32,714 nt of DNA, taken from assembly GCA_021820565.1 (NCBI GenBank), contig JAKADL010000004.1, positions 1 to 32,714 on the forward strand, given 5' to 3'. Below are positions 20,032 to 31,810 of the stretch, in pieces. Below the pieces are notes generated by a model. The model made no database searches. It saw nothing but the letters and a program-made list of their open reading frames with translations, and had not been told where the DNA came from. Position 1 is the stretch's first letter, and each line of letters opens with the position of its first letter. The stretch comes from Thermoplasmata archaeon. Lineage in GTDB: Archaea > Thermoplasmatota > Thermoplasmata > Thermoplasmatales > Thermoplasmataceae. A program made the translations under genes and the position numbers.

Positions 20032-20868
20032 ATGGATCGACCAGTACTCACCGTAGCAGCTATTGTAATATTCATTCCGGATTTTATAATGTTATTTGCA
20101 TTACGGAATGTAATATACAGTGTTACGGTTATATATTTCACTTTACTTTTTACGGCGACATTTATTATAATGAAACTGGTAAAGATATATGGAGTTCTAA
20201 TATTCCTTTTATCCATATTAGCAGTTTTACTTCTTTATATCAAAACATTCTATTCATATACAGCTACAGTTTCAAAATACTTTTTCTATCTGCCAAATAT
20301 GCCCATTTCGAATAAAATAATATTTACATTCATAATACTTTTAGTAATATTTTTTATAATTCAGGGTTTATTTTCAAGAAAATTCTGGGCCCTCCTGTCT
20401 TATTATTTTATGGCTTCAGGTGTGTTACTGTTGCAGATGGCCACACTAGCGTACATGCGCACTTTTCATATAGGGATAAACATAACTTCCTATCTAGTAT
20501 ACTTCGGTTATATCATGGATCAGGAACACACGTCAATTGTTTCCCTTATGAATCACGGTTACCAGACCTATCTACCGTTATATAGATTAAGCCTGCCAAT
20601 GGCCTTACCGCTTTCCGCTGGATTCGCAATCTCAGTACTAGGATCAATTTTATGGCTATATTTAAAGGATAGCAAAACAGATGATAATATAATTGGATCA
20701 TTTTCAATCATTATCGGCCTCGCAATCGGATTTATATTTTTTATATCCTTACGTTATATTATACCATTAAAATTTGAATTTCTTTACATTGCAATAGCTT
20801 TTACCACGTTATTTATTATAATATCTTATAGTAACAAGAAAGGAAGAGATATATATACCCATATCTGA
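20032..20868 (+). CDS. Polytopic membrane protein of unknown function, last gene of the MoxR/DUF58 operon
   Basis: 278 aa, mostly hydrophobic with about eight predicted TM segments by eye. 1 nt after the DUF58 stop. Confidence 0.75.
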   Translation: MDRPVLTVAAIVIFIPDFIMLFALRNVIYSVTVIYFTLLFTATFIIMKLVKIYGVLIFLLSILAVLLLYIKTFYSYTATVSKYFFYLPNMPISNKIIFTFIILLVIFFIIQGLFSRKFWALLSYYFMASGVLLLQMATLAYMRTFHIGINITSYLVYFGYIMDQEHTSIVSLMNHGYQTYLPLYRLSLPMALPLSAGFAISVLGSILWLYLKDSKTDDNIIGSFSIIIGLAIGFIFFISLRYIIPLKFEFLYIAIAFTTLFIIISYSNKKGRDIYTHI

Positions 20869-20996
20869 AAATTGTGATAATATAGCCATTAATTCTATTT
20901 AACTCAAAAATTATTAATAACTTGAAAAGTAAACATAAACGCCATAATAATAGGAAAATAGGCAAAAATTTATAATTTATGAAGTTATGATATTAT

Positions 20997-21084
20997 CATA
21001 GCCCAGCAATAAAAGGCATAGTATTGCCGTCCAGTAAAAAGCTGATGTAGTCCCATCAGCTCTGCTGAAAGATGGTAATGCTAT
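20997..21084 (+). ncRNA. Candidate structured non-coding RNA
   Basis: The intergenic region between convergent genes can fold as a 14-bp outer helix (21018-21031 with 21071-21084, three G-U wobbles) enclosing a perfect 8-bp hairpin (21040-21047 with 21054-21061, loop UAGUCC). TATA-like TTTATAA at 20969-20975. The 5' boundary is inferred from TATA spacing. Confidence 0.45.
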
Positions 21085-21399
21085 TTAGATAAGGGGCTTT
21101 TCTTCTATTTCCCATCCATATAATCCATTATAAAGGTTATATATATTTTCTATTCCATTTTCTTCAAGGAATTTGCCGGTATAATAACTCCTATGTCCTG
21201 AACTGCAAACCAGGACTATCTTTTTTCCATCATACTTTTTTACCAGGGAAATATCATTAAAAACATCATACATGGGTACCAGGACGGACCCCTCAATATG
21301 TCCGGTTTCATATTCAAACTGCTCCCTGACATCAATGATTATACATTCATCTTTCGCAATCATCTCTGAGAGTTCATCAGGAATTATGTTTAGAACCAT
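21085..21399 (-). CDS. Single-domain rhodanese (sulfurtransferase)
   Basis: 104 aa. IIIDVREQFEYETGHIEGSVLVP, active-site loop VLVCSSGHRSYYTGKFLEENGIENIYNLYNGLYGWE. Confidence 0.92.
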   Translation of the reverse strand: MVLNIIPDELSEMIAKDECIIIDVREQFEYETGHIEGSVLVPMYDVFNDISLVKKYDGKKIVLVCSSGHRSYYTGKFLEENGIENIYNLYNGLYGWEIEEKPLI

Positions 21400-29038: not shown

Positions 29039-30616
29039 TCAATATAATGTGGACTGGTTGTTGTGAGTTTCCATGTCCAGTGATGATATATCTATGCCGA
29101 AATTTTGTATAAATGATTTAGAATAGGACCTATATCCGCCTCTGTATATTCTGCTTGTGTGTTCAATATAGAATTTCATATCATCAGAATTTAATTGCCT
29201 GGCTAAACTTTCCAGGTTACCATTGAATTTTATGCAATAACCTGCATAAAACGTATAATCCGGTTTATTCCATACTATGAATCTTGGTCCATTTCCCATA
29301 GGTGATACCAGTATTTTTTTACCAAAGGACGAATTTAAACTCTGGGTCCTGCCAAATGCATACCAGGGAATTATATTTTTACCTTTATCCCTGAGATCGA
29401 GTCTCTCCCTTATGGCCAAAAAATAGCTGTAAGTTAACGGATATCTCTTCCTAATTTCATCTTCACCAATCGGTATATTTTTTCCGTTTACTGATTTATA
29501 CGGAAATATAATAAATCTATTTTGAACTTCTTCAGAATGTTTCAGCTTTGAAACTTTTACTATCGGTTTGAGGATTTCTTTTTCTATTGTATATTTTTCA
29601 TTGTTTTTTAATCTTATTATAGCTTTACTATCCTCAAATACAACGTCTTTAAAAATATAAAAATCATCGGCCAAGGTAGTTATACCCACATGAATTTCTG
29701 CAATTTCCCCTAGTTTTTTACCTCTATTTTCTATTTCACTAATTCTATTCAATACCTTTAAATTATCCAGCACCCATTTATTATCATTTAAAATGCTAAA
29801 AGGTATATTGTCTATAAAATTTAATTTATCCTCATAGGTAAAATACGAGAAATAATCATTATCTAAATTCTTTGCAATTACAGTAATGGCACTGTAAGTT
29901 GTAATGCCCTCGAATAACTGTTTCTCATTATAGTTAATAATATTTTTAAGTAATTTATTATTTTTTAGATACTTCCTGAATAATTTAGCAGCGTCACTGT
30001 AAAAATAGGTATTTGGTGTTATAAAACCTAAAACGCCGGTTTCATTCAATAAATTTATGCCCAGTTGAAAAAAAGCAATGTAGATATCAGTAGAACCAGA
30101 TGCACAGAAATAATAATTATTTTGTATGTACACTCTCATTTCTTTATTCAGATTTTGAATTCTTATATACGGGGGATTACCGATAACATAATCAAATTTA
30201 TTAAATAAATCCCTATTTAACTCCATATCTAAAGCGTTCCTACAATACAGAGAGAAATCTAACTTATCTTCAATCTTATGTTTTAAAAGTATGTCATAAA
30301 GATTAATTTTACATTGTTCAAGTGCATTCTCGTCTGTATCTATTCCATATACATTTTTCTTTATAATATTTATTTTATCCTTGTAGGAAAAACCTTTATC
30401 TTCAAGATAACCCAAAAGTCTATCCAGTACCAGAGTTAAGAAATTGCCACTACCACAGGATGGGTCTATTATTGTTTTCTGTTCCAGGTTCTCTGTATAA
30501 CCTATATTATCCAGTATTAAATCAACTATCCAACCTGGTGTATAAACAATACCGTGGGATTTTTCTTTTGTAATATTCAGATACTTCGGTATGCCCCTCA
30601 ATTCTTTATTTTGCAT
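29039..30616 (-). CDS. N6-adenine DNA methyltransferase, TaqI-like (type II / IIG-like), apparently orphan
   Basis: HGIVYTPGWIVDLILDN, SAM motif IIDPSCGSGNFLTLVLDRLL, catalytic motif IV FDYVIGNPPYIRIQN, TaqI-like specificity-type C-terminus. Start assigned to internal Met 30616 because AAAGGAGGTG lies at 30625-30634. The ORF track extends to 30679. Confidence 0.9.
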   Translation of the reverse strand: MQNKELRGIPKYLNITKEKSHGIVYTPGWIVDLILDNIGYTENLEQKTIIDPSCGSGNFLTLVLDRLLGYLEDKGFSYKDKINIIKKNVYGIDTDENALEQCKINLYDILLKHKIEDKLDFSLYCRNALDMELNRDLFNKFDYVIGNPPYIRIQNLNKEMRVYIQNNYYFCASGSTDIYIAFFQLGINLLNETGVLGFITPNTYFYSDAAKLFRKYLKNNKLLKNIINYNEKQLFEGITTYSAITVIAKNLDNDYFSYFTYEDKLNFIDNIPFSILNDNKWVLDNLKVLNRISEIENRGKKLGEIAEIHVGITTLADDFYIFKDVVFEDSKAIIRLKNNEKYTIEKEILKPIVKVSKLKHSEEVQNRFIIFPYKSVNGKNIPIGEDEIRKRYPLTYSYFLAIRERLDLRDKGKNIIPWYAFGRTQSLNSSFGKKILVSPMGNGPRFIVWNKPDYTFYAGYCIKFNGNLESLARQLNSDDMKFYIEHTSRIYRGGYRSYSKSFIQNFGIDISSLDMETHNNQSTLY

Positions 30617-30624
30617 AAACGATA

Positions 30625-30634
30625 CACCTCCTTT
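30625..30634 (-). promoter_or_regulatory. Strong Shine-Dalgarno sequence AAAGGAGGTG of the methyltransferase
   Basis: Minus-strand sequence aaaggaggtgtatcgtttATGCAAAATAAA; consensus SD 8 nt upstream of the ATG. Confidence 0.75.
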
Positions 30635-30721
30635 AGAAATGATTGTTATACCAGAACTTCTAAATATAAACACCCACATCCTGGATTCAGAAATTGTAGA
30701 AGTTAGGTATATTTTGAAAAA

Positions 30722-30806
30722 TGCGGAGAGTGGGATTTGAACCCACGAATCCCTACGGAAATGGACCCTGAATCCATCGCCTTTGTCCTAGCTCGGCAAT
30801 CTCCGC
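30722..30806 (-). tRNA. tRNA-Leu (anticodon CAG)
   Basis: Minus strand GCGGAGATTGCCGAGCTAGGACAAAGGCGATGGATTCAGGGTCCATTTCCGTAGGGATTCGTGGGTTCAAATCCCACTCTCCGCA. 7-bp acceptor GCGGAGA/TCTCCGC, anticodon stem ATGGA/TCCAT, long variable arm (class II), T arm GTGGG TTCAAAT CCCAC, discriminator A. Confidence 0.96.
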
Positions 30807-31705
30807 TTTCTGAAGTTCACAGTTTCGTCATGAACCTTTTTCAATATATCTGGATATTTATCTTTTCCTAATAACTTTATCTTTCTTATACTTGACTCCA
30901 TTCCTATCATATTGCCCGGGCTTACGATACAGTGTTTATTAATCATATATCCTAATTTCTCGTTATTATAAATTATATAGCCATTCTCATCTGGTTTTCC
31001 CAACAGCAGGGATTTGGCAACTCCGATTGTAGGTTTTCCCATTATGATCCCGGCAAAAGTCGCCAGTCCGCATTTTCTTGGATGAAGCAGTCCGTTGGCA
31101 TCTATGATCAGGGTACTATCAAATCCATCTGATAGTTCTTCGATGAACGGTGTTTCTCTGTATCCTAAATATCCCGGTATATATGGAAAATCCACTCTTT
31201 GATAAAATGTTTTCACGGTATAATTCCCGCTATCATAAATTGCTATTGCGCCGTAACCATCTCTTCCTTCATAGGAAACATCAATAGCCGCATAATTATC
31301 AGCCACCGGTACATCTTCGAATGATGCCAGTGCTGCAATGTCTTTCTGCTCTTTCTGGAGCCTGGTAAGTGGGTAATCTGTCCTGAACTCTGAAAACAAG
31401 CGCCCCTCAAAATTCTCGATCATTCCGTTGGATATTATGATTCCATCTCTCCTCAGCCTCTTCTCCTTCTCATCAACTCCCAGTGCATATTTTCCAACAC
31501 GTCTATCGGTGTGAACTACCTTGTAGCAGGGAATTGTGTCGGGATCCGAATTAATTGACAGCATGTAACCAACTGCCCGTGCTGCCCTGATGTCTCCCAG
31601 TGCCCTGGCTAATTCGCCATATGTCGTAATATATCCATCCGGAACCTGCTTTACCAGGTCATAAAAATATTTATAGAGATTTATATGTGTATATTTGAAA
31701 TGCAT
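30788..31705 (-). CDS. Fused O6-alkylguanine-DNA alkyltransferase / endonuclease V
   Basis: AGT domain: VPDGYITTYGELARALG...RAARAVGYMLSINSDPDTIPCYKVVHTDRRVGKYALG, active-site Cys in PCYKV. EndoV domain: AAIDVSYEGRDGYGAIAIYD...LIIDANGLLHPRKCGLATFAGIIMGKPTIGVAKSLL. Start chosen at Met 31705 because TATAAATTT lies ~25 nt upstream; the ORF track extends to 31756. Confidence 0.92.
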   Translation of the reverse strand: MHFKYTHINLYKYFYDLVKQVPDGYITTYGELARALGDIRAARAVGYMLSINSDPDTIPCYKVVHTDRRVGKYALGVDEKEKRLRRDGIIISNGMIENFEGRLFSEFRTDYPLTRLQKEQKDIAALASFEDVPVADNYAAIDVSYEGRDGYGAIAIYDSGNYTVKTFYQRVDFPYIPGYLGYRETPFIEELSDGFDSTLIIDANGLLHPRKCGLATFAGIIMGKPTIGVAKSLLLGKPDENGYIIYNNEKLGYMINKHCIVSPGNMIGMESSIRKIKLLGKDKYPDILKKVHDETVNFRKRRLPS

Positions 31706-31725
31706 AAACTTCCATGCACCACATC

Positions 31726-31734
31726 TATAAATTT
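31726..31734 (-). promoter_or_regulatory. TATA-box candidate for the AGT-EndoV gene
   Basis: Plus-strand TATAAATTT (minus AAATTTATA) centred ~25 nt upstream of Met 31705; it lies inside the extended ORF. Confidence 0.55.
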
Positions 31735-31810
31735 CTATTGAAATATAATAATTCACTAAAAGAATTATTTACTCATAAACTTTATATTTCAAGTTTTTAT
31801 TACCCTATGA

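Follow-up and report, generated by a model that had tools for sequence, protein, structure and literature searches.

Between the final MoxR-operon gene and the convergent rhodanese gene, the window (the whole 32,714-nt stretch of DNA analysed here) very probably holds a gene for a structured small non-coding RNA. The RNA forms its own family, without a relative in Rfam, would belong in kind to the archaeal intergenic trans-acting sRNAs and, judging from the genomes compared, is specific to one branch of the genus Ferroplasma. Its apical hairpin is complementary to the start of the mRNA for a TrpY-family regulator (trpY), and we consider it rather probable that it is a lineage-specific trans-acting sRNA that blocks translation of this mRNA. 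We see about an even chance that a recently arisen riboregulator represses an amino-acid transcription regulator in this way, its loop invading a leaderless mRNA at the opening codons. The coordinates of the features are given in Table 1.

Table 1. Positions of the predicted RNA, its structural elements and its candidate signals in the window.
Feature	Position	Strand	Remarks
Predicted small RNA transcript, ~105 nt	20998..21105	+	Both ends putative
Candidate promoter, BRE-like GCAAAAA then TATA box TTTATAA (GCAAAAATTTATAA)	20963..20975	+	Roughly constant distance to the core
Helix P1, 5′ arm	21018..21031	+	From the fold; cognate arms out-pair swapped arms in nearly all combinations
Helix P1, 3′ arm	21071..21084	+	Abuts the rhodanese stop codon of the opposite strand
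Helix P2, 5′ arm, CAGUA	21032..21036	+	Compensatory changes at two pairs in G008
Helix P2, 3′ arm, UGCUG	21063..21067	+	Compensatory changes in G008
AAA of the internal loop, invariant	21037..21039	+	Alignment columns 14-16
AAA bulge separating P1 from P2, invariant	21068..21070	+	Alignment columns 45-47
Apical hairpin P3 (21040-21047/21054-21061)	21040..21061	+	Hexaloop UAGUCC at 21048-21053
Proposed seed UGAUGUAGUCCCAU	21043..21056	+	Complement of trpY mRNA nt +3 to +16
Pyrimidine/U-rich tract, candidate terminator	21098..21112	+	Antisense to the last rhodanese codons; putative function

The plus strand of positions 20990–21095 folds with a free energy of −37.3 kcal/mol (z = −5.75), and none of 200 dinucleotide shuffles (mean −20.1, sd 3.0) was as good. 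The minus strand of the same region folds less well (−31.1 kcal/mol, z = −3.87). An earlier note on this DNA had proposed a 14-bp outer helix and an 8-bp apical hairpin; both are formed in the predicted fold, and all the sequence elements it named were found where it had placed them. What it described as an A-rich/CUGAAA internal loop is actually the 5-bp helix P2 together with an AAA/1-nt loop and an AAA bulge. The architecture is, in order, P1, AAA bulge, P2, an internal loop in which AAA faces a single nucleotide (21062), P3 and the hexaloop, making up one long stem. The fold is also formed by all the orthologs described below (6/6 genomes), with z-scores of −6.0, −6.5 and −7.4 in three of them and −2.5 in G003 and G009, in which P2 is less regular at its top, as is the AAA/1-nt loop.

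Two further features of the apical hairpin were observed. An AUG is followed by a UAG at 21045–21050 (GUG-UAG in G006), and this start–stop pair is probably a coincidence. The sequence GUAGUCC of the apical loop (21048–21053) also occurs in the sense orientation in helix 24 of Ferroplasma 16S rRNA (loci L206 and L207), which is probably coincidental as well.

As the earlier note had reported, the RNA is flanked by convergent genes, the final MoxR-operon gene at 20032–20868 (+) and the rhodanese gene at 21085–21399 (−; Pfam Rhodanese). For the own TATA box that it had proposed, the picture is mixed. TTTATAA is present at 20969–20975, directly preceded by the BRE-like GCAAAAA, and the distance from the start of the BRE/TATA element to the core is kept in four of the six genomes (~54 nt in the window, 53 in G005, 55 in G006 and ~50 in G008, where the candidate differs in sequence, AAAATACTATAAAT); in the other two, G003 and G009, a weak CTTTATG alone is seen at this position. 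Conservation climbs at the candidate promoter relative to the unconserved spacer. Motifs resembling a TATA box are frequent in DNA this rich in AT, which limits the weight of the candidate, and from its position and spacing we regard it as plausible that the RNA gene has its own promoter. The start of the RNA is predicted near 20998, ~25 nt past the TATA box. Together with the U-rich tract as the end, this predicts a length of ~105 nt.

The RNA gene was found in 6 of 10 Ferroplasma genomes, in one copy each: the window genome, G003, G005, G006, G008 and G009. All six copies occupy one site, flanked by the same convergent pair of genes. Searching 41 related genomes at the DNA level produced strong matches in the five further Ferroplasma genomes and noise elsewhere. 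With a covariance model built on the 55-nt core, the six true copies scored 75–82 bits. The other matches listed from partly overlapping sets of 101 genomes of the genus, 117 of the family and 11 of the order did not exceed 21 bits in this filtered Infernal search, which could miss very divergent copies, and those outside the genus (16–21 bits) were rejected as chance matches. None of the 4227 Rfam covariance models matched at its gathering threshold, and allowing E-values up to 10 gave chance-level matches only, in keeping with the earlier suggestion that the RNA is novel. Other candidates were also discarded. A scan of genome contigs with the 14-mer GATGTAGTCCCATC gave chance matches only, and for 15 matches of a 16-mer in viral contigs the covariance model confirmed the hairpin alone.

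The earlier note had named conservation and covariation in relatives as the test of its candidate, and the six syntenic Ferroplasma copies keep the structure and covary. Mean pairwise identity is 0.80 in the core, 0.15–0.4 in the upstream spacer and ~0.5–0.7 in the upstream coding gene, so the non-coding core is better conserved than the neighbouring protein gene. Changes on both sides are seen at 6 of the 21 core pairs. The covariation score was 0.314 against 0.218 for shuffled alignments; just 1 shuffle in 500 attained 0.314, and the score fell to 0.089 or less when the 3′ partners were slid. RNAalifold returned essentially the same fold when no structure was imposed. The arms of P1 are largely rewritten across lineages, and still, with few exceptions, an arm pairs better with its cognate partner than with a swapped one. 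Wobble cells in the alignment are G-U in 11 cases and A-C in none, which indicates that the changes keep pairing on the plus strand only. The structure is thus conserved under selection on one strand, as in archaeal itsRNAs, and the plus-strand RNA suggested earlier is supported, with the qualification that the minus strand folds too, if less well. As the alignment has six sequences, of which two nearly duplicate others, we take the support from covariation to be good but not overwhelming.

The hexaloop UAGUCC and the two AAA elements are invariant in the six carriers, and the loop and six stem pairs of P3 are unchanged in all of them but for one A-U to G-U change. While P1 and P2 covary, P3 and its loop hardly vary, which points to recognition of the apical sequence itself by some partner.

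We searched for targets by sequence patterns. AUG-UGG-GAC-UAC-AU, the start codon region of the TrpY-family regulator gene, is the complement of the apical segment UGAUGUAGUCCCA. The complement of the loop and its closing pair, GGGACTAC, occurs 11–18 times per genome in G003, G005, G006 and G008, and one orthologous set of these occurrences lies on a start codon in all four genomes, four bases into the ORF (ATG TGG GAC TAC ATM). A second set conserved in 4/4 genomes (L236, L221, L248, L210) was set aside; it lies deep in a coding region and presumably reflects coding conservation. The bases of GGGACTAC read backwards occur 87–116 times in each of these four genomes, and the scarcity of the forward word is perhaps due to avoidance of CTA/TAG words. 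With the 13-mer TGGGACTACATCA and at most one mismatch, the only matches in all six carriers are the RNA gene itself and the trpY start. The complement is 13 nt long in four genomes (a single G-U pair being included in one case) and 11 nt in G003 and G009.

The trpY start reads ATGTGGGACTACAT in 7/7 genomes of the carrier clade, which includes G001. In G002, G007 and G004, which lack the RNA, it reads ATGTGGGACTATAT or ATGTGGGATTATAT, that is, GA(C/U)-UAU. Within the carrier clade no stretch of the 510-nt gene stays unchanged for longer than nt 1–14 (the next longest is 11 nt), with 6 of these 14 bases fixed by Met-Trp. Much of the target conservation lies in two codons, and 2-fold codons of trpY are invariant 30–40% of the time, so that the synonymous-site evidence alone amounts to p ~0.1–0.15.

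The predicted RNA–trpY duplex spans 14 bp with an energy of −24.4 kcal/mol (in G003 and G009, between about −20 and −21.6), compared with −19.9 for the best of 240 control start regions using the window hairpin and −23.7 using the G006 hairpin. The trpY orthologs of the RNA-less species give −15.8 to −18.4 kcal/mol. Shuffled hairpins of matched composition were as good as the real one in 1–3 of 3000 cases, and we estimate that ~8 equally strong sites per genome arise by chance, ~0.2 of them in start regions. The duplex energy alone is not significant; what gives the proposed match its weight is the combination of position, exclusivity and co-distribution. The RNA gene and trpY are far apart (614 kb and 1,566 kb on contig C1 of G005; contigs C136 and C38 in the window genome), so that, as for archaeal itsRNAs, an intergenic RNA gene is distant from its proposed target and does not overlap it. 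In sequence, a complement at a regulatory site of the mRNA that is conserved among the carriers likewise agrees with this class.

The assembly that contains the window (G000) has a second trpY start region at the end of a contig (G000:C69:2938-2950, L292), and this closely resembles the G001 gene. Some DNA from another Ferroplasma species thus seems to be present in the assembly, and the L292 fragment is likely a contaminant.

The gap between the flanking genes is 144–216 nt in the carriers and 3–12 nt in G002, G004, G007 and G042, a genome of an outgroup genus. As the two genes are just 3–12 nt apart in three relatives and the outgroup, the RNA gene probably arose through one gain along the stem of the carrier clade. 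A tree of trpY, a gene unrelated to the RNA locus, groups the carriers with G001 and places the RNA-less species apart, with support of 0.92–0.99 on the intervening branches. Neither of the flanking genes nor the syntenic locus was found in the ~80% complete assembly of G001, which carries the trpY target motif; a near-match on its contig C88 was rejected as a copy of the RNA.

The target protein has 170 aa and matches NCBIfam TrpY_fam over its whole length (2e-48), with weak matches to ACT domains in Pfam. In its full-length match it is like TrpY of Methanothermobacter thermautotrophicus, from which it differs in scoring below the curated cut-off (164 bits against 180). The function of TrpY homologs differs between lineages (PMC6737238). 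With the score below the cut-off and homolog function varying in this way, a role of the Ferroplasma protein in tryptophan control is a guess. A TATA-like element, e.g., TTTAAATAC, lies ~25 nt upstream of the ATG, which suggests that the trpY mRNA is probably leaderless.

In the mechanism we propose, the ~105-nt RNA would be transcribed from its own plus-strand promoter and fold into one long stem. The invariant loop UAGUCC would first touch codons 2–4 of the trpY mRNA, through GGACUA, after which P3 would open and a 14-bp duplex would form over nt +3 to +16. The duplex would cover the stretch that enters the ribosome first and so keep the start codon from the ribosome, and the predicted outcome is lower synthesis of the TrpY-family regulator. 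Activation or stabilization of the mRNA may be the outcome instead of repression. Opening P3 is predicted to cost 6–10 kcal/mol against the 20–24 gained by the duplex. Points that weigh against the proposed role in trpY control include this need to open P3 (−6 to −10 kcal/mol), in G003 and G009 the short complement and the weak promoter, and in G001 a target motif with no RNA locus found in the incomplete assembly.

An invariant P3 stem and loop on covarying P1 and P2 is also what a protein-binding site would need, and chance alone should yield sites of equal energy. The RNA could accordingly be real, independently transcribed and structured, with a trpY match that arose by chance, and have another target or be bound by a protein via the apical hairpin and the AAA bulges. 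Against this stands the finding that in 6/6 carriers the trpY start is the sole complement with at most one mismatch beyond the RNA gene, as well as the weaker trpY complement in the RNA-less species, and we regard a chance match as possible but rather unlikely. The location between convergent genes would suit a cis element too, be it a 3′-UTR or terminator of the MoxR operon or a convergent antisense RNA acting on the rhodanese mRNA via the 3′-end overlap, since the predicted 3′ end of the RNA overlaps the rhodanese stop codon and the minus strand folds as well (z = −3.87). The loop is invariant, however, the G-U asymmetry argues against a symmetric bidirectional element, and relatives with the same two genes manage without the RNA. 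The stretch separating the RNA from the upstream gene shows no conservation and differs in length between genomes, which also disfavours the 3′-UTR alternative raised in the earlier note. A cis role thus appears improbable.

By eye, CUGA at 21065–21068 and a UGAUGU look like D and C boxes, and weak snoRNA matches far under threshold were obtained, as might be expected of an atypical C/D-box or H/ACA-box guide RNA. The CUGA is gone in G008 (GUCGA), though, no match reached the Rfam thresholds, and the 16S rRNA gene contains no GGACUA complement of the loop. As the bulges lack tandem G·A pairs they form no kink-turn. A RUGAUGA and CUGA kink-turn conserved in the orthologs, as in C/D-box RNAs, was not found; with respect to H/ACA RNAs, inspection of the fold by eye showed no guide pocket or kink-turn, and Rfam gave no match. 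We hold a guide RNA, for which the earlier note too had seen no convincing boxes, to be very improbable. The ideas of a tRNA and of a 16S antisense RNA were rejected after the Rfam search and the 16S comparison, respectively. The inverted-repeat shape and the presence/absence polymorphism at one site would fit a DNA element (MITE, REP or attachment site) with no RNA gene; given one copy per genome, none in other contexts, and strand-asymmetric wobble changes, we find this barely credible.

Archaeal small RNAs with a named target are few. In the literature searched we found none in Ferroplasma or other Thermoplasmatales, and we know of no earlier RNA–target pair of this kind in the order. If the proposed pairing with trpY is true it would be the first there, with the empty ancestral site still visible. 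Orthologs are at hand, as is a sister clade free of the RNA; the gain can be assigned to one branch, and there is one specific predicted target, with a poorer match in species that lack the RNA. The system makes small-RNA action on leaderless mRNAs in archaea directly testable in a cultured type strain. In Methanosarcina mazei, sRNA154 uses its loop 2 to mask the ribosome-binding site of the glnA2 mRNA, and sRNA41 masks ribosome-binding sites as well (reviewed in PMC5867862, according to which sRNA154 is conserved in its genus). Like these, the proposed Ferroplasma RNA would be an intergenic trans-acting archaeal RNA. It differs in being one long stem with one apical loop, with no sequence relation known, and in that it would pair with the opening codons of an mRNA that is probably leaderless, not with a ribosome-binding site. 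The proposed target mRNA of sRNA162 of M. mazei (PMC5867862) likewise codes for a transcription factor controlling metabolism, whereas lineage, structure and target differ.

Elsewhere in the window, the ORF at 30788–31756 (−) encodes an O6-methylguanine-DNA methyltransferase DNA-binding domain fused to endonuclease V (Pfam). A similar bifunctional alkyltransferase/endonuclease V protein has reportedly been described from Ferroplasma acidarmanus. The ORF shares its final 19 nt with a tRNA-Leu (CAG) gene at 30722–30806 (−), which is followed by an Eco57I-type restriction-modification methylase at 29039–30679 (−). The overlap of the tRNA-Leu gene with the ORF, followed by the methylase, suggests an integration site.
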